A DNA stretch of 35,760 bases from Desulfobacteraceae bacterium 4572_35.2. Lineage in GTDB: Bacteria; Desulfobacterota; Desulfuromonadia; Desulfuromonadales; Desulfuromonadaceae. Where the stretch lies: positions 1 to 35,760 of the forward strand of contig NBLY01000013.1 in NCBI GenBank assembly GCA_002084665.1, read 5' to 3'. Made by a program: the position numbers and the translations under genes. Below are positions 15,640 through 32,327 of the stretch, piece after piece. Numbering within the stretch: position 1 is the first letter of the stretch; each line of letters opens with the position of its first letter. A model generated the notes under the pieces. The model was not told the origin of the DNA, did no database searches, and saw nothing but the letters and a program-made list of their open reading frames with translations.

Positions 15640-15679
15640 AAACGCTGTATACAGTATGCAAAAGACCAACAGCTGTCAA
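15640..15679 (-). promoter_or_regulatory. Promoter/operator of icd, same element as upstream of mdh
   Basis: Read on the minus strand this is TTGACAGCT (TTGACA at 15674-15679), seven variable bases, then a 24-bp block (15640-15663) containing the palindrome CTGTATACAG. The 24-bp block is identical to 19943-19966 upstream of mdh, and TTGACAGCT sits at exactly the same distance in both. TTGACA is a consensus -35 and the palindrome falls over the -10/start zone, as a repressor site would. The leader to the icd start is about 126 bases. Confidence 0.75.
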
Positions 15680-16064
15680 GCAAAAACACCGCCGAAGCAG
15701 CTGGGCCACGTACGCAGCATAAGCCCCTGTCTTTAGGGCTAAAATTTCCACGACTAACAACGCACAACAATTATATTCGCGAGAATGACCCTCGTCATCA
15801 GCAGATACAAACCTAACACAATCAGAACATTAACCTGTGAGCAAAAAGCCCCCGTTCACGCAACAATCAGCCAAGACCACCGATAACCATGTTCGCAACA
15901 TAAAAGGATCACTATCTGTCAAATCAATATTTTATTACATACCCCCTTCCAATGGCCGTCCAATTGCTGTATTAAGTTGTTTTTGCCTTGGATAGCAAGG
16001 CATGTAAATAAAATATAGGTGAGTCGGCAGCCAACCATCGTCGACAGCACCAAAGGAGCTTCTT
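15680..16064. other. Long divergent intergenic region between icd and hisS
   Basis: No coding sequence is convincing here. It holds small inverted repeats: AGCCC...GGGCT at 15722-15740, ATGAC-cctc-GTCAT at about 15784-15797, and GCCTTG-gatag-CAAGGC at 15985-16001 just upstream of hisS. The last could belong to the hisS leader. No T-box or known riboswitch was recognised. Confidence 0.4.
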
Positions 16065-19872: not shown

Positions 19873-19926
19873 CAAAGCACCCCATTATTCGCAAGATAGG
19901 GGATAAAAAACCCATCAGATTTTCAC

Positions 19927-19966
19927 TTGACAGCTTTTCCCCTTTTGCATACTGTATACAGCGTTT
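19927..19966 (+). promoter_or_regulatory. Promoter/operator of mdh, same element as upstream of icd
   Basis: TTGACA at 19927-19932 followed by GCT, seven variable bases and a 24-bp block at 19943-19966 with the core CTGTATACAG. The block is identical to 15640-15663 in front of icd. The palindrome covers the expected -10/start region, which suggests a repressor that controls both genes. GntR-family regulators often bind TGTATACA-like palindromes; the identity of the regulator is inference. The leader to mdh is about 166 bases. Confidence 0.75.
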
Positions 19967-24228: not shown

Positions 24229-26136
24229 TTATTCGACCAACTTATTAGCTTGCTCGCTCGACACCTTGATTTGCGATGGGACAACAGGCTTGGAAAACAA
24301 AAAGCCCTGCATCTGCGAACAGTTGCGATCAGATAAAAACACGGCCTGATCGTGTGTTTCAACCCCTTCAGCAATCACATGTAGGCCCATATTGCGTGAC
24401 ATGGCGATAATTGTTTCAACAATCGCTGCATTGTCTGGTTCATGAAGAATATCCACCAAAAATGATCTGTCGATCTTTAAACGATCAATCGGAAAATTTT
24501 TCAGATAATTTAAAGATGAATATCCGGTACCAAAATCATCAATGGCGATTCTGACCCCTAAGCTTGAAATTTTATGTAATAAGTTCAAGGCCTGATCGGT
24601 GCGTTCAACAAGTACAGATTCAGTAATCTCCAGCTCAAGTTGCTCGGAAGGTAAGCCACTTTCTTGCAGTGCATTGAGGATAACCTCAACAAGGTTTGGT
24701 TGTTCAAGTTGAATCCCCGACAAGTTAACCGACAGACTCAATTCAATACCAAGTTCCGTTTGCAGCTGCACTATCTCTCGACAAGCGCGACGGAGAACCC
24801 ATTCACCAATAGAAATAATTAGCCCAGTCTCTTCAGCAACAGCAATAAACTTATCGGGTAAAATCAATCCGAGCTCAGGATGGTTCCAGCGCAACAGTGC
24901 TTCAACCCCCACCACCTTTTTCGTTTCCAAATCGATCTGTGATTGGTAGCAGATAAACAGCTGTTCGTTTTCGATTGCATGTCTTAAACCGTTTTCTAGC
25001 TCCAACTGCTCAACAGCGTTACGATTCATACTCTCGGAATAAAATTGAAAGCTATCACCCTTCTCACTCTTTGCCGCATACATGGCCATATCAGCATTAC
25101 GCAACAGATCAGCAGCATTGGCACCATCTTGGGGATAAATAGCGATCCCAACGCTCCCTGATAACACCAACTCATGGCCCTCAATAGCACAAGGCTGACC
25201 AATGGTTTTGAGAATTTTTTGGGCGATATGTGGAACATTGAATGAATTGCGATAACCAGAAAGAACAATAATAAACTCATCGCCCCCCAACCTTGCCACG
25301 GTATCATTTTCACGAAAAGAACTGCTCAAACGCTGAGCGACCTCTTGCAAAAGAAGGTCGCCGATATGGTGACCCAAGGTATCGTTGACTTTTTTGAAGT
25401 GATCCAAGTCAATAAATACCACACCCAAGTGATGGTCAAATCGTTTGGTGTCAGCAATGGCGTGAACCAGTCGGTCTTGCAGCAACGTTCGATTAGGCAG
25501 GCCAGTTAACTTATCGTAATAAGCAAGTTGATGAATTTTGTCCTCTGCAGCTTTACGTTCTGAGATATCGCGATAAATGGCGCGGATACTATGGGGCTGA
25601 TCATTTTCAAAGCGTAAACTCACATTGCCTTCGAGCAACATAGGGCAACCATCTTTACGCAAAAATGTCACTTCAGCTGAATTAACAATTCCACCTGCGA
25701 TGAGCGATTCAAACCGCTGACGACAATGATGGTGGTCATCAGGACTTATCACGTCAAAAATATTGAGCGCAGCAATTTCACTATCGCTATAACCTAAGGT
25801 CTCGCGCCAAGCGCGATTAACAAAGAGCAAACGACCGTCGAGAGCCACAGATTGGATTAAATCGGATGCATTTTCAAACAGGTCATGATAGCGCTCTTGC
25901 ATCGAAGTTTGGGCATGCAACGAACGGCGTAACCGTCCAGACCAGATCCCCAGCAATCCGCCAGCAATGCTGCCGTAAACACTAGGATAGAGATAACTCG
26001 TGACACTACGAATATCTGCGCCAAGTTTCAACCTCGGAACAATTGAAAAAACAGCGAGAATGATCGCACCGGCAAGGGAAAACAAACAAAAGTCTATGAC
26101 GGGTCGAGAATACAATCGATCAATAAAATTTTTCAC
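24229..26136 (-). CDS. Membrane PAS-GGDEF-EAL cyclic-di-GMP signalling protein
   Basis: The 635-residue protein has two membrane helices (about 14-34 and 50-66) and a PAS sensor domain (82-195, ENASDLIQSVALDGRLLFVN). A diguanylate cyclase domain (about 205-365) has intact GGDEF at 284-288 and an inhibitory RxxD site five residues before it (R275-D278). An EAL phosphodiesterase domain follows (about 375-620, VEALLRW at 411-417, ITESV, DDFGTGYSSL, EGVET). All catalytic signatures look present, so it could both make and break cyclic-di-GMP; in many such proteins only one activity is used. The short periplasmic loop offers little sensing surface, so PAS is the likely input. It is a stand-alone gene. 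Confidence 0.93.
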   Translation of the reverse strand: MKNFIDRLYSRPVIDFCLFSLAGAIILAVFSIVPRLKLGADIRSVTSYLYPSVYGSIAGGLLGIWSGRLRRSLHAQTSMQERYHDLFENASDLIQSVALDGRLLFVNRAWRETLGYSDSEIAALNIFDVISPDDHHHCRQRFESLIAGGIVNSAEVTFLRKDGCPMLLEGNVSLRFENDQPHSIRAIYRDISERKAAEDKIHQLAYYDKLTGLPNRTLLQDRLVHAIADTKRFDHHLGVVFIDLDHFKKVNDTLGHHIGDLLLQEVAQRLSSSFRENDTVARLGGDEFIIVLSGYRNSFNVPHIAQKILKTIGQPCAIEGHELVLSGSVGIAIYPQDGANAADLLRNADMAMYAAKSEKGDSFQFYSESMNRNAVEQLELENGLRHAIENEQLFICYQSQIDLETKKVVGVEALLRWNHPELGLILPDKFIAVAEETGLIISIGEWVLRRACREIVQLQTELGIELSLSVNLSGIQLEQPNLVEVILNALQESGLPSEQLELEITESVLVERTDQALNLLHKISSLGVRIAIDDFGTGYSSLNYLKNFPIDRLKIDRSFLVDILHEPDNAAIVETIIAMSRNMGLHVIAEGVETHDQAVFLSDRNCSQMQGFLFSKPVVPSQIKVSSEQANKLVE

Positions 26137-26266: not shown

Positions 26267-27112
26267 TCATGGGAGTGGCTCCTTCACGTTTAGTGGCCAT
26301 GTTTCATCGATCAACTTAGTCATTTCCTGCTCTTGCAACACCACGGGCAACATCCGCGTTAACGGACGAATCGCACGGGGATTCTTGATCCATTTTTTCA
26401 GACCTTGAATATCCCACGGTTGATTATCTTTATGGGTTTTAGGGTAGAAAGAACTGAACAATCCAGACAAATTCGGCGCGATAGCCCCCGTCCCCAACCC
26501 ACCCTGCTTGGCAGTCAACAGCCGATGACAGCTACCACAATGTTTTTCAAAAAGATTTTTCTCATCTACACCATTTTCAAAATGGATCACTTGTGGTGGT
26601 TGTGAACTTGCCCATTGCGGCTTGAGCCCAGCAGCAAAAATAACATTAACAAGAGCATCCACGTCACCTTGCTGCAGAGAAAAGTCGGGCATAAAAAAAG
26701 CGGGAACGCGAATAGAAGCTACCACTTCGTCAGGTAAAACCTGTTGATACAAACGATCTAAATCAGCGGCCAACGGGTTCCCTTTACCTGCCAAAACGTG
26801 ACAGCGACGACACGCCAACAGATCAACGAGATGTTGGCCACGCCTTACAACATCAGACTCAGTAAAGCGATACCAAGAGTGGTTCGCCTCAATGAGACGG
26901 TAATGAGCAAGTTGCCGCCGCAGAGTTGTTGGATTCCCGCGATGACAATCAACACAGGCCAACGTCGACAACAACCCTTCTTGATGTTGCTGCACAGCCC
27001 TCTCTCCACTACAACCATCGTGACAACGCACACAGCTGGCAGATTCAGCCAAGCATTCGCTCGCCCATGTCAGGGCGATAACAGCAATTAAAAGAACCAG
27101 CCGAATAACCAA
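26267..27112 (-). CDS. Tetrahaem cytochrome c, last gene of the Rieske/cytochrome b operon
   Basis: The 281-residue protein has a signal peptide (residues 1-22) and four CxxCH haem sites: CVRCH 27-31, CVDCH 53-57, CRRCH 101-105 and CGSCH 192-196. The first two lie in a compact N-terminal segment. The last two head monohaem-cytochrome-like segments (DLLACRRCHVLAGKG; FEKHCGSCHRLLTAKQ with a later TRMLP that may supply an axial Met). It is probably the cytochrome c subunit that takes electrons from the Rieske/cytochrome b core in the periplasm. It starts with TTG inside the end of the subunit-IV gene, behind GAGG, a coupled arrangement. I do not know a specific named homologue. Confidence 0.85.
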   Translation of the reverse strand: MVIRLVLLIAVIALTWASECLAESASCVRCHDGCSGERAVQQHQEGLLSTLACVDCHRGNPTTLRRQLAHYRLIEANHSWYRFTESDVVRRGQHLVDLLACRRCHVLAGKGNPLAADLDRLYQQVLPDEVVASIRVPAFFMPDFSLQQGDVDALVNVIFAAGLKPQWASSQPPQVIHFENGVDEKNLFEKHCGSCHRLLTAKQGGLGTGAIAPNLSGLFSSFYPKTHKDNQPWDIQGLKKWIKNPRAIRPLTRMLPVVLQEQEMTKLIDETWPLNVKEPLP

Positions 27113-27501
27113 TTTTCGCCTCTAAAATAAAATGCAACCACCGTTAAACCAACAATCACCAAAAACGTTATCACCGTTAACCAGTTAATCTTTTTTTGAT
27201 CGCTAGGGAACCATTGTGCTTGGGCGTTCGGGCTCACATTCGGCAGCCAAGGCAATGCACAAAATAAAATTCCAAGGAAAATGATCGGATAGATCGCGTA
27301 CTTGGTGTAACTAACCACCTCTTGCGTCCAAATAAGAAACCATGCCGCACGCGAGGGATTAGGAACCAGCGAGATATCGGCAGGATTGAGCAACGGCGCT
27401 GGAAACAGCGCGGCAAAAACCACGACAACCAGCACAATCGCCGCCATCGATTGCTTAATTAAGCGAAAAAAAACAGGATCACTTTTTACATAATTTTTCA
27501 C
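27088..27501 (-). CDS. Cytochrome b subunit-IV-like membrane protein
   Basis: The 137 residues carry three membrane helices (about 17-37, 66-86, 107-127). The stretch FPAPLLNPADISLVPNPSRA with AWFLIWTQE is the counterpart of the b6f subunit IV/cytochrome b C-terminal region that helps form the quinol oxidation (Qo) site. In mitochondrial and b6f proteins this place has PEWY; here it reads RAAWF, a divergence seen in split cytochrome b proteins of anaerobes. It starts with GTG overlapping the cytochrome b stop (GTGA), so the two halves are translated together. Confidence 0.85.
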   Translation of the reverse strand: MKNYVKSDPVFFRLIKQSMAAIVLVVVVFAALFPAPLLNPADISLVPNPSRAAWFLIWTQEVVSYTKYAIYPIIFLGILFCALPWLPNVSPNAQAQWFPSDQKKINWLTVITFLVIVGLTVVAFYFRGENWLFGWFF

Positions 27502-28118
27502 AGGTACGGTAACACCCCTTTTTGTTTGCGAATTTTATAAAAATGTAAAAAACACAACATCAACGTTACCCCAGGAAGCACCACAACATGCAGCACATAA
27601 AAGCGCAACAACGATAATGGCTGACCTACGGCATCGGGCACTAAAAAGCCGTGCAACAACTCACCGCAGGGAACCACGCGGAGCAACTCCATCCCAGTCT
27701 GTGTCGCCCACAGTGCCAATTGATCCATCGGCAACAGGTAACCTGTATAACCAGAGAATAGCCCTAAGCATAGCAACATAAAGCCGATCAACCAGTTCAT
27801 CTCACGTGGCTTACGATAAGCTCCGGTAAGGATCACCCGCAGAGTATGAAGAAAAAGGAGGATCAAATAAAAATTAGATGCCGTACGATGTAAGCTGTGC
27901 AAGAAATGGCCAGCAAATACCCGTTCTTCAATATAAATAATGGAGTTGTACGCATGATCGGTATGCGGTTGATAATACATTGCCAACAAAAACCCACTCA
28001 CCATTAATAGCATAAATAGTGTAAAGGCCATCCCCCCCAAACAGAAGGTATAGCTAATGCGCAAGTTACGTTCTATCACCACCCGCGGGAATAGATGTTT
28101 GATAAAATCTTCAATCAC
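27498..28118 (-). CDS. Cytochrome b (b6-type, N-terminal half)
   Basis: This 206-residue diheme membrane protein oxidises quinol in the inner membrane. Four helices carry the two histidine pairs: FLHSLHRTASNFYLILLFLH in helix 2, and RFYVLHVVVLPG with LCFLHFYKIRKQ in helix 4. The GYTGYLLPMDQLALWA segment matches the GYSLPWDQ-like Qo region of cytochrome b. Length fits b6-type split cytochrome b, with the other half encoded next. It starts with GTG at 28118. Between it and the upstream Rieske gene lies a MITE. Confidence 0.92.
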   Translation of the reverse strand: MIEDFIKHLFPRVVIERNLRISYTFCLGGMAFTLFMLLMVSGFLLAMYYQPHTDHAYNSIIYIEERVFAGHFLHSLHRTASNFYLILLFLHTLRVILTGAYRKPREMNWLIGFMLLCLGLFSGYTGYLLPMDQLALWATQTGMELLRVVPCGELLHGFLVPDAVGQPLSLLRFYVLHVVVLPGVTLMLCFLHFYKIRKQKGVLPYL

Positions 28119-28140
28119 AATAATACCCTTTAGCGCGCGC

Positions 28141-28307
28141 TAGCAGGCTGTCGGACTTGACGGGCCGTAGCGAGAAATAGACTGCTTGAGACCAGATTTT
28201 CGAGAATTTGAGAGCGAATAGCTGGCCTATTTGTCGATAATTGTCGGAAACATGGGCCAAGTCAGGCTGTTTCGCAGTAGGTCCATGTTAAGTTCGACAG
28301 CCTGTTA
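28141..28307. mobile_element. 167-bp MITE-like element with terminal inverted repeats, inside the cytochrome operon
   Basis: The ends TAGCAGGCTGTCGGACTTG (from 28141) and, on the other strand, TAACAGGCTGTCGAACTTA (to 28307) match at 18 of 21 positions over the full repeats. The interior has no open frame of note. The element fills nearly the whole gap between the Rieske stop (28313) and the cytochrome b start (28118). Its transposase partner is not in the window. TA at the outer ends could be a target duplication. Confidence 0.7.
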
Positions 28308-28312
28308 GAATG

Positions 28313-28705
28313 CTATCCGTAAACAAGCCAATCTTCACCCTGTTGTTGCAACTCTAAGCGCGGCAAGTCTTCGTCAGCGGGACCTTTTAATATCGTGCCA
28401 TAACGATCAAATACGCTGCCATGACACGGACAACTAAGCTCCTTTGGTGTCACGCTCAGAGTACAACCCAAGTGGGTACACACCAAACTTAACGCATAAA
28501 CGTTACCTGCCTCGCGAATCAAAGCGAATCGTTGTTGACGGTAGACCAAAGCACCGCGGCCAGGAACTGAGGCCATTGGAACCCGAGCCAACAATGTTTT
28601 CGCTACTGGAACTGGGGCAAAAAACTTTTGCAAAAACCATAGCCCTGCGCCTGCGGTTATTGCGGTGCGGAGGAAGTTTCGTCTTTTTTTAGAAAAGTTT
28701 GCCAT
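28313..28705 (-). CDS. Rieske iron-sulfur protein
   Basis: The 130-residue protein carries the [2Fe-2S] Rieske motifs CTHLGC (76-81) and CPCHGS (92-97), so the cluster ligands Cys76, His78, Cys92 and His95 and both bridging cysteines are in place. A Tat-like start (KKRRNFLRTAITAGAG) gives an N-terminal membrane anchor that carries the folded protein to the periplasmic side. It overlaps the upstream decahaem gene by 49 bp. With cytochrome b and subunit IV it makes a bc-type quinol oxidase core. Confidence 0.93.
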   Translation of the reverse strand: MANFSKKRRNFLRTAITAGAGLWFLQKFFAPVPVAKTLLARVPMASVPGRGALVYRQQRFALIREAGNVYALSLVCTHLGCTLSVTPKELSCPCHGSVFDRYGTILKGPADEDLPRLELQQQGEDWLVYG

Positions 28706-29931
28706 TTTCTCACATACAATTCAGCATAGTTGCGATCTCGACGCGACATACGTTGAAACCGTTCTAGCGGATAAAATGATCCATTAACAATCAGCTGCCC
28801 CTCGGGGCGCCAAAAACTCGACAAACCTAGACCATCGCGGTCAGGACGGTAGATCCGCTTCTCTTCAGGCTGCAACATAAAACGACGTGGTTCATTGTGG
28901 CAACTATCACACATTACGGTGCCACGACGTATGGTGTGCGGTGTATAGGCTTTCCACTCAGCGGCTAACAGTCTATTTTCATCACCAACAGGTTGATTAT
29001 TTTCAATCTCACTATAATAAGCAATAAACTGTGGCCGGATAGGACTGACTCGACCACGCTCATTTAAGCCAAGAATCGGCGAATTTTGGCGTTTCAAATA
29101 ACTACTTTTGACATACTGATCATTCGTTTGCCGCACTCTAAAATAGTTGCGATTCGAACTGTCAGTCGTTTTGATATAAAAGGTTCCATACTCTTGCGCT
29201 GACCATGCCGCATGACAACTAACGCACTCCATATTGTCTAAATGGGCGGCAACACTGTGTTCAATCACGGTAGGATCGGGATCATGGCAATCAATACAAC
29301 GGCTGGCAACAACTTGCCCCGCTTGCAAACTTTCCATGGTATGACAATCGCCACAATCCATCCCCACTTCAGAATGGACATCAGGGCGCATTTTCAAGTA
29401 ATGCTGTTCGTGATTCTGTTCACCACGCTGATAGCGGACACTGTCTTCACGCGGGGCACGGCCAGAAAAATCCCAGCCGACAAAATAGCCGTTATGACAT
29501 TGCAAACAGGTCTCGGTATCAGGACGATCAATGGCATGACCTTCACCATGACAATCCAAGCAGCTTGTCACATGGCAGCCCATGCAGTTGGTATCAAAAA
29601 ACTGTGGATCGGCTTGCGACCAACTTCGCTGACAAAACTCCTGCTCGGCCACACGGGTACTCATGGCATGATCAAAGATACGCTCGGCCTGCTCATGGCA
29701 GCCAGTACAGCCAACCGCATTATTATCGATGGTTGTGGGATCGGCAACATTTCCAGCCACACCATGACACTCGCGACAGCCTAACTTGGCATGAACACCG
29801 CTAACAACATGGTCATGGCAATCCTGACACGCTGCACCAGCAGTTAAGTGAGCATGGGCTTGTACCAGCTCAGCATGAGCCGCAACGATGCTACTGAGTA
29901 ACAGCAGCGCGGTTAAAACACTCTTCAACAC
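28657..29931 (-). CDS. Decahaem c-type cytochrome
   Basis: Ten CxxCH motifs are visible, in order CQDCH, CRECH, CTGCH, CMGCH, CLDCH, CLQCH, CGDCH, CIDCH, CVSCH and CDSCH. The best start is the GTG at 29931, giving a clean signal peptide (LKSVLTALLLLSSIVAAHA); the frame stays open to 30030, but that extension is shadow of the upstream gene. The C-terminal 80 residues after the last haem (from QPEEKRIYRPDRDG) have no haem and may be an interaction module. The protein should be periplasmic and shuttle electrons from the Rieske/b core. It overlaps the upstream cytochrome gene by 41 bp. Confidence 0.87.
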   Translation of the reverse strand: MLKSVLTALLLLSSIVAAHAELVQAHAHLTAGAACQDCHDHVVSGVHAKLGCRECHGVAGNVADPTTIDNNAVGCTGCHEQAERIFDHAMSTRVAEQEFCQRSWSQADPQFFDTNCMGCHVTSCLDCHGEGHAIDRPDTETCLQCHNGYFVGWDFSGRAPREDSVRYQRGEQNHEQHYLKMRPDVHSEVGMDCGDCHTMESLQAGQVVASRCIDCHDPDPTVIEHSVAAHLDNMECVSCHAAWSAQEYGTFYIKTTDSSNRNYFRVRQTNDQYVKSSYLKRQNSPILGLNERGRVSPIRPQFIAYYSEIENNQPVGDENRLLAAEWKAYTPHTIRRGTVMCDSCHNEPRRFMLQPEEKRIYRPDRDGLGLSSFWRPEGQLIVNGSFYPLERFQRMSRRDRNYAELYVRKWQTFLKKDETSSAPQ

Positions 29932-31611
29932 GATTATAATCCAATGGTTGTTGATAGATAGGATCTTTCGGCTGATCATGGCACACCAAGCATTGATTAA
30001 CAGCCAAAATACGATGAACTTCTTGATCATTCAACGCACGACTATGTTCGCGTACCACACCAGAAAATGATTGCACATCCCCCTGCTGCATCACCATAAA
30101 ACCATCTAAAGGTAAATTATCAGCCTTTTCACACAGCAGCGTACTTTCAACATTTTGCCCTTCAACGACATGCTGCCCAAAGCCCAAAAAGACAAGATTA
30201 GCATGGCATTCACTACAACCAACGGCCTTAGCCGCAGTGTTGTGCGAATAGAACGGCGCAAAACGCAGCTGTTTTTTCCCCTTGAAGGTTGAAACATACT
30301 CCTCCAGCTGCGCCTCACCATCAGCATCCAGTACGGTGACAAAGGTCTGACACCCTGGAGTTAATGGTGCTATTTTACCTCGCTGATCAAGGGCTAACGG
30401 AAAAGGATACAGTGAGCGATAATCCTCGGTCTCGCTAAAGCTACCCCGTGTTTTTCGACCGATAACGTAATCCATCCCCTGTTGCGATTGATCATATTGA
30501 GTATGGCAACCGAAACATTGCGGCACCGCTGCCGAATGACAAGCATAACACTCCATCCGCTCGTGACCAGCAATCTGGTGTTCAGGAGTGCCAGTGATCA
30601 CCTTGCTAATATGCTCACGACCATCACGCTTACCCACCACGACCACCTTACCATCACGATAAAAGACATTGGAGTAAGGTCGCCCTTTTGAAGTTAAAAC
30701 CAGCGTATCACCACTATAAACCTGCTGCTGATAACTACGCGACTCCCGTAGCGCTTCATCATTTTCACGCGCAACGATTTTTACCTTGGGCAGCTCAAGC
30801 GCACTACCGTGGCAATCCTCACAGGAGACCTCGGTTTGCAAATACATGTTCTCGTAGGCGTAGCCATCACCCATCACATCACGCGAGGTGTGGCAATCGA
30901 TACACTCTAAACCTTTTTCATGGTGGATATCGGCCTGAATTTGCGTCACGTTGCGCGAACCAGAGATCACTTCAGGACCGGGGAAGGCATTGCGAACAGG
31001 AACTCCACCATTATTACCATCATTCATCCCCTGATAAGAGAGAGCAATACGGCCACTACGGTTATGACAGCGGATGCACACAGTATTAGTCGGCAACGGC
31101 TCCATACGGTGCGTTTCAGAATGGGGCCACTTATTACGTAAACTGAGATCATTGCCCTGATAAGTACCATTGTCATTAAAAGGGAAATGACAAGCGGCAC
31201 AACCTGAAGCATGGGAACCGCGCCAAGATTGAGTCGATTCAACCCCCACGTGACACAATGCACAATATTTACGATACAGTTCTCCGGCCAAATTATCTAA
31301 CTCACGCACCGAGCGCAACTGAACGGGTTTACCTTGAGCATCAAATTGCTGCTGAGGCACTTGCCACAGGTTTCATCCCAAAACTCTGGATCGGAAGGGT
31401 TGCGTGGCCCATACATACTCGCGTGAGCTGCTTTTTTATCGCTCAGGGTCGCATCACCACCGTGACACGCTATACAATCGCCATGACTATCTGATGCCAA
31501 CTCTAAGCCAACATGACAGCGTTCACACTGTGAGTCAGGCTCTGAAAACATACAGCCAAAACACAAACAACACAGAACAGTCACAACTGATAAACTTAAA
31601 AATCGAAACAT
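29891..31611 (-). pseudogene. About 12-haem c-type cytochrome, interrupted by a frame-shifting loss
   Basis: The first part starts MFRFLSLSVVTVLCCLCFGC, a signal peptide with a weak lipobox-like Cys20, and carries CERCH, CIACH and then CGKC at residues 82-85, but the expected His of that third site is missing because the frame ends in unrelated text. The rest, from about 31360, carries nine more sites: CALCH, CAACH, CIRCH, CIDCH, CEDCH, CYACH, CFGCH, CSECH and CLVCH. At the joint the DNA reads TGTGGCAAGTGCCTCAG, which serves both as CGKC in one frame and as WQVPQ in the other, so TGGCAAGTGCC looks like a direct repeat between which sequence was lost. The first gene of the cytochrome operon is therefore broken as written. 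Confidence 0.83.
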
Positions 31612-31733
31612 GAAACCCTAAGGTGAAAGGAAAAAAGCATTAAAAGGAGCATGTCGTACAACAAGCGAACAACGAACATTCTTTCTTTTGAAAAATATTT
31701 CTCGTAATTTCAAATAGGCCCAACACTCAACAG

Positions 31734-32327
31734 CTACTTCTTAATCGCTGCCCAAGCATTATACAGCAGATCATCGGTAATCTCTTGCAGCGGAGTATTG
31801 ACCACGCACAACAAACGCAACTCAACCGCCCGCAAAACAACACCGATATAGCTGATCGCCGCAGCGTACAGATCTTGTTGACGAATCACCCCTGTCTTCA
31901 TGCCCTCTTCAAGCATCACGCGTACTGCCTTAAACGGTTCGGTAAAGCACATTGGTACGGCATCAGTCATAAATTCGGAGTGCTTCATGTACAGCATATA
32001 TTCCATCATCACTGGATCAGATTCAGCAATATCAAACGACAAACGGGCAAATGCTTCAAGTTGCTCTCGCACCGTCGTTACATGCTCTAGACGTTGCTGC
32101 AACATCTGGTTAAACTCTTCGAGGGTGTTGTCATGAATCTGGCGGGCAAGGCTCTCTTTATTGTCGAAGTAACTGTAGATAGCCCCAGTACTCACCCCCG
32201 AGGCCTTAACGATGGCAGGGATCGAAACATTGTGGTAGCCCTTCTCAACAAACAACTCGCGAGCCACCATTAACACTTTTGCCATTTTTTCATGTGGCGC
32301 AATATGACGTTTTTTTTCTCCAGACAT
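31734..32327 (-). CDS. TetR-family transcriptional regulator
   Basis: The 197-residue protein has the TetR helix-turn-helix at about 20-65 (KVLMVARELFVEKGYHNVSI, KASGVSTGAIYSYFDNKESL), followed by an all-helical ligand-binding domain (70-195). The ATG at 32327 follows an AGGGGGGCT ribosome site. It lies upstream of the cytochrome operon on the same strand with a 120-bp gap, so control of that operon is a reasonable guess, with no direct evidence. The ligand is unknown; the domain resembles AcrR-like regulators only in general layout. Confidence 0.88.
   Translation of the reverse strand: MSGEKKRHIAPHEKMAKVLMVARELFVEKGYHNVSIPAIVKASGVSTGAIYSYFDNKESLARQIHDNTLEEFNQMLQQRLEHVTTVREQLEAFARLSFDIAESDPVMMEYMLYMKHSEFMTDAVPMCFTEPFKAVRVMLEEGMKTGVIRQQDLYAAAISYIGVVLRAVELRLLCVVNTPLQEITDDLLYNAWAAIKK

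Follow-up and report, generated by a model that had tools for sequence, protein, structure and literature searches.

The contig NBLY01000013.1 of Desulfobacteraceae bacterium 4572_35.2, a 35.8-kb piece of a fragmented 1.9-Mb assembly that is 80% complete, was analyzed over its whole length (35,760 nucleotides, hereafter the window). It carries the ext core (extMNOPQS, Cbc6) of a Desulfuromonas-family bacterium. According to the list of open reading frames (ORFs), the core is made up of six co-directed genes that run on the minus strand from 31611 to 26267 in the order extM-extN-extO-extP-extQ-extS. The locus is a member of a described kind, since the cluster corresponds to the already published GSU2935-GSU2930 of Geobacter sulfurreducens. 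We consider it likely that its products work as a menaquinol oxidase that feeds periplasmic multihaem cytochromes, under the control of a TetR-family regulator. An initial annotation, made from the sequence alone, had read the order as 12-haem, 10-haem, Rieske, cytochrome b, subunit IV and tetrahaem, and this order is present. It had also called the unit "related in idea" to the Cbc complexes of Geobacter; the kinship stands, but the wording is too weak, as the locus is Cbc6 itself. The components of the locus are listed here from the upstream to the downstream end.

31297-31611, minus strand: extM 5' piece; lipoprotein-like start, two CXXCH motifs, frame lost past the third; NF040943 positions 4-82.
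29891-31360, minus strand: extM 3' piece; nine CXXCH; NF040943 positions 118-599, 853.8 bits.
28657-30030, minus strand: extN (cbcN), decahaem cytochrome c; homologous part starts near 29889; NF040967, 612.7 bits; ten CXXCH.
28313-28705, minus strand: extO, Rieske 2Fe-2S protein; twin-arginine-like N-terminus; 49-nt overlap with extN; Pfam Rieske 8.4e-13; CTHLGC and CPCHGS boxes.
28119-28312, minus strand: spacer between extO and extP with a dispersed repeat of about 167 nt.
27498-28118, minus strand: extP, cytochrome b6-like; haem-b His 77, 91, 177 and 192; Cys26 at the haem ci position.
27088-27501, minus strand: extQ, membrane subunit, remote subunit IV (PetD-like) candidate; NF040970, 175.3 bits; AAWF at the PEWY place.
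26267-27112, minus strand: extS, tetrahaem cytochrome; two cytochrome-c-type domains; NF040971, 315.9 bits; four CXXCH.

An Ext family is the top NCBIfam match for five of the six genes, and ExtM, ExtN, ExtQ and ExtS score above the respective cut-offs (853.8, 612.7, 175.3 and 315.9 bits). ExtP reaches 226.4 bits against a cut-off of 290; NF040969 is still its best NCBIfam match, and its position is syntenic. In Pfam, the Rieske gene matches Rieske and the b gene matches Cytochrome_B, and the assembly as a whole holds a single match to each family, both at the ext locus. The profile named for the iron-sulfur subunit ExtO (NF040968) spans 416 positions and matches the decahaem ExtN (28657-30030) at 618.6 bits, whereas the Rieske protein itself does not hit this profile in the NCBIfam scan; given this length and this target, it cannot be used for testing ExtO. 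Either the model or its name seems to be wrong. Taken together, the five best matches to Ext families and a gene order that repeats in 44 of 57 loci place the ext identity far beyond chance.

The decahaem and tetrahaem genes hold ten and four CXXCH motifs, as annotated, and eleven intact ones are spread across the two extM frames. This gives 25 intact c-haem motifs at the locus, compared with 26 in an unbroken set and with the approximately 26 c-haems first proposed, a figure that also leaves out the covalent haem ci that ExtP probably carries, discussed below.

In 2010, Butler et al. described the cluster as a "bc complex" conserved across all six Geobacter genomes compared, and as a candidate for the uncharacterized link between inner membrane and periplasm in Geobacter (PMC2825233). 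The G. sulfurreducens cluster extHIJKLMNOPQS (GSU2940-GSU2930) has the same 12-haem ExtM, 10-haem ExtN, Rieske ExtO, b-type ExtP, membrane ExtQ and tetrahaem ExtS in one run (PMC5877670), whereas the window cluster has no extH, extI, extJ or extKL and its extM is broken. Cbc6, given as CbcMNOPQR, overlaps extKLMNOPQS with partly different letters (PMC10989804, PMC11434368). It shares the 10-haem CbcN, with GSU2934 listed as cbcN, and the b-type CbcP, but differs by a 5-haem CbcR (Gmet_0534), taken here as the ExtKL counterpart, which is not in the window cluster.

The gene set is also found in relatives, the nearest named one being the Desulfuromonadales metagenome-assembled genome (MAG) C00003068. 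The initial annotation had named a lack of the set in relatives as grounds for refutation, and this check leaves its proposal standing. Scanning a single genome for each species yielded 43 loci from Desulfuromonas, Geobacter, Geomonas and other Deltaproteobacteria, and from single or few MAGs labelled Vicinamibacteria, Bdellovibrionales and Myxococcales. With loci from further relatives added and seven duplicates removed, 57 loci were compared, two of which (L060 and L066) come from one genome. The six genes stand in the same order on one strand in 44 of the 57, and 41 of these have every gap below 1 kb. Most of the remaining 13 are cut by contig ends; extM is inverted in L059, and L044 is set apart solely by an additional ExtM match on the opposite strand. 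Matches to the ExtN profile occur in 40 of 58 genomes (the window's own counted), 24 of them above the curated cut-off, and many of the weak ones are other cytochromes.

The redox residues of the two core proteins are well preserved. The four haem-b histidines are present in all 52 ExtP sequences, and the helix-A cysteine in 50 of them. A solved cytochrome b6 is the best match to the ExtP profile (2.4e-47), and in the HMMER alignment the ExtP helix-A cysteine falls on the cytochrome b6 cysteine, which we take to be the haem ci residue of b6f. Judged by these alignments, ExtP is b6-type, and the position of the cysteine suggests that it probably carries a covalent haem ci. In the readable ExtO sequences, the CTHLGC and CPCHGS boxes are intact, and a phenylalanine follows two residues after CPCHGS in all but one. 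The Ext complex thereby shares with cytochrome b6f/bc the Rieske protein, the four b-haem histidines, the b6-type split and the helix-A cysteine. It differs in having multihaem partners that replace cytochrome f/c1, and in an ExtQ without the PEWY glutamate.

The place of PEWY in ExtQ was set from PF00032, as the motif presumably lies near the start of that profile; the placement rests on weak matches starting at residue 40. At this place ExtQ carries (S/A)AWF and the like, and none of the 52 ExtQ has an acidic residue in the six-residue stretch. A glutamate seven residues beyond Trp54, Glu61, is invariant in all 52. Because the PEWY glutamate is missing throughout, neither a standard quinol-oxidation site nor a Q-cycle can be assumed. 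If confirmed, this loss bears on the energy conserved by such a complex; our literature search returned no paper combining Geobacter and PEWY. PF00032 matches 4 of 27 ExtQ homologues below the cut-off (best 0.0075 among the matches listed), together with other families that also match weakly and by chance. Searching the solved chains with the ExtQ profile gave no relative, the top two matches being PsaA at an E-value of about 0.95, as expected by chance. The AlphaFold model of ExtQ has a mean predicted local distance difference test (pLDDT) score of 66.9 and a predicted template modelling (pTM) score of 0.36. In its structural alignment, chain B of b6f (4ogq_B, 2e74_B) reaches Z 2.2-2.3, and since these chains tie with unrelated ones, the alignment decides nothing. 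The ExtN model, with a mean pLDDT of 37.5, was not used. On the sub-threshold Pfam matches and this poor model, ExtQ is a candidate for subunit IV.

In the mechanism we propose, ExtP, ExtQ and ExtO would make up the inner-membrane menaquinol oxidase. Quinol electrons would pass to the Rieske cluster, from there to the cytochrome-c domains of ExtS, and then along the periplasmic haem chains of ExtN and ExtM. Where a relative has extH and extI, electrons could continue to the outer-membrane module; in the window lineage, they would end on periplasmic carriers or reductases, or exit by another route. The initial proposal, in which a quinol oxidase of the Rieske/cytochrome b type delivers its electrons to periplasmic multihaem cytochromes, agrees with the homology.

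Several points weigh against this mechanism. The PEWY glutamate is absent, ExtQ is a candidate subunit IV at best, ExtP scores below its family cut-off, and extM is broken in the window. Furthermore, the phenotype of the extI mutant concerns selenite and tellurite and not general respiration (PMC5877670), our literature search found no biochemistry of the Ext/Cbc6 complex, and the outward direction of electron flow is itself inferred. Running in reverse, the complex would carry electrons from periplasmic cytochromes to the quinone pool. The haem ci and the non-standard quinol site are compatible with this, and we presume multihaem chains to be reversible in principle. However, direct evidence for it is lacking and the published expression reports consulted concern acceptor reduction or outward transfer, so that we regard reversal as very improbable.

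In Geobacter the outer-membrane conduit extHIJKL is a neighbour of the core (PMC6148476), as it is in most core-bearing family genomes, but the window differs. Neither extH nor extI is in the window, and neither ExtH nor ExtI was found in its 80% complete assembly; the search for ExtH covered this genome only. ExtI was also not found in the assemblies of G003, G004 and G009, so that 4 of the 13 core-bearing family genomes are without it and 9 have a strong match. For two of the four, G009 and G004, the listed completeness is 97-98%. Genome G012 stands outside the 13, having no ExtN, no ExtM and an ExtI match of only 31%. The TetR gene is directly beside extM in the window, G003, G004 and G009. 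In G011 the order is TetR, extH, extI, extM, and in G002, G006 and G008 it is TetR, extH, extI, a PAS-type gene, a second extH and extI, and extM. At locus L071 (2403-9949), extH-extI is likewise doubled, with a PAS-type gene in the middle, and its two ExtI proteins share 98% identity, pointing to recent duplication or conversion.

A tree of five Ext proteins places the window sister to G005, which has extI, with G009 and G003+G004 elsewhere on weakly supported nodes (54-70). As its sister keeps extI, the loss of extHI in the window line was probably a separate one. A single loss for all four genomes was rejected; barring regain, the tree requires two losses or more. The genomes that hold the core without extH or extI are natural test cases for core function without outer-membrane neighbours. 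A search of 14 genomes for MtrB/PioB-like porins, as an alternative exit, gave none above the cut-off; in G000, G009 and G008 there was not even a weak match. Since G008 is a complete genome with ExtI, this search is not evidence of absence. The weak porin-like matches G003:C87, G004:C1, G005:C57, G011:C3 and G013:C57 each contain one in-frame TGA, which may mean selenocysteine or two adjoining frames.

Alternatively, the complex could serve mainly for periplasmic detoxification or respiration of selenite and tellurite, with the b/Rieske core supplying the electrons. The NCBIfam names point this way, although the tellurite and selenite terms in these labels were not taken as function, and loss of extI in G. 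sulfurreducens reduces selenite and tellurite reduction (PMC5877670). That phenotype, however, belongs to ExtI, which is missing here, and the selenoprotein candidate ExtKL is also outside the window cluster. In addition, Fe(III) citrate reduction also falls, to about 65% of the wild type, when extHIJKL is deleted (PMC6148476). We therefore hold this role to be improbable.

Extending the menaquinol oxidase reading to the whole Ext/Cbc6 family, we put forward a broader idea that is possible but doubtful. The family would be b6-type throughout, with haem ci kept and the PEWY acid lost, leading to a non-standard menaquinol oxidation (perhaps through ExtQ Glu61, or without bifurcation) that feeds long haem chains directly. 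One Desulfuromonas lineage would have been cut from the outer-membrane exit and left with a terminus confined to the periplasm, its TetR control unchanged.

The 12-haem gene, initially annotated as intact, lies in two frames with 2 + 9 CXXCH motifs. More specifically, the first frame encodes 104 amino acids with two CXXCH and stops just past a third motif that lacks its histidine, and DNA alignment with three relatives reveals a gap of 115 nt. For comparison, 47 of the 55 ExtM ORFs counted have 12 CXXCH. ExtM and ExtN are partly related, as positions 374-504 of the ExtM profile match ExtN. A complete ExtM cannot be produced from the gene as assembled, and therefore the 12-haem arm was either recently lost or is misassembled. 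The break looks recent or like an assembly error, the latter being possible because the genome is fragmented and incomplete.

The broken gene raises the prospect that the locus is a decaying remnant, with extH and extI lost, the core under weaker selection and extM already a pseudogene. ExtM is in two frames also in G003, of the same genus, hence in two of the four ExtI-less genomes (one frame in the other 11 family genomes with ExtM), and the extO-extP spacer holds a dispersed repeat. Against decay, extM is whole in G009 and G004, both without ExtI, and short extM frames occur also in L036 and L084, which keep other ext genes; the state of the assembly may itself account for the break. The ratio of non-synonymous to synonymous substitution rates (dN/dS) against G005 is 0.108 and 0.041 for the extM pieces, 0.089 for extN, 0.083 for extO, 0.031 for extP, 0.155 for extQ and 0.135 for extS, values that are rough because dS is 0.4-1.1. 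This range of 0.03-0.16 is like, or little above, that of two genome pairs retaining extHI (0.00-0.09 for the same genes), with extQ and extS somewhat higher in the window. These ratios indicate that the core is under purifying selection and was maintained after the split from G005, and we consider decay unlikely. The repeat in 28119-28312 has inverted-repeat ends and 24 matches in its own genome, counting itself; seven others are near full length at 73-83% identity.

Upstream of the core are the two elements through which it would be controlled.

31734-32327, minus strand: TetR-family regulator gene, upstream of extM and co-directed; Pfam TetR_N 6.4e-17; homologue upstream of ext in family genomes.
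31674-31681, no strand assigned: GAAYGTTC palindrome, candidate operator, between TetR and extM; only copy in the window.

The adjacent TetR gene was correctly annotated. The suggestion that it may sense a respiratory or toxic signal gains some support from conserved synteny and from a palindrome that recurs in related loci. Across 13 family loci (224 kb), GAAYGTTC is present in 20 copies. Of these, 12 fall in the 300 nt preceding extH or, in loci without extHI, preceding extM, regions that together measure 3.9 kb. None was found before extM in G009, G003 and G004, nor before extH in L075 and L076. As the motif was picked by eye, post hoc, from upstream DNA and tested on the same DNA, and several genomes are close kin, a binomial value for it is not a fair P-value; with five loci lacking the site, the motif is a lead only. 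To judge from this placement, GAAYGTTC is probably the site through which the TetR protein controls the promoter. Other TetR genes near ext loci share 46-54% identity, and those loci may hold a different regulator. The window has TetR beside ext, in contrast to LysR in most clusters surveyed, although some ext clusters have TetR regulators alongside (figure 9 legend; PMC6148476). By eye, L076 shows a similar but different palindrome.

Further features of the window lie outside the core. Downstream of extS, a large gene (24229-26136) contains PAS, GGDEF and EAL-like motifs recognized by eye, and has homologues downstream in same-genus genomes. An inverted repeat at 995-1060 has 29-nt arms that are 97% complementary around an 8-nt loop. 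Inverted 47-nt arms at 15640-15686 and 19920-19966, 87% complementary and 4.2 kb apart, are possibly the ends of a mobile or duplicated unit.

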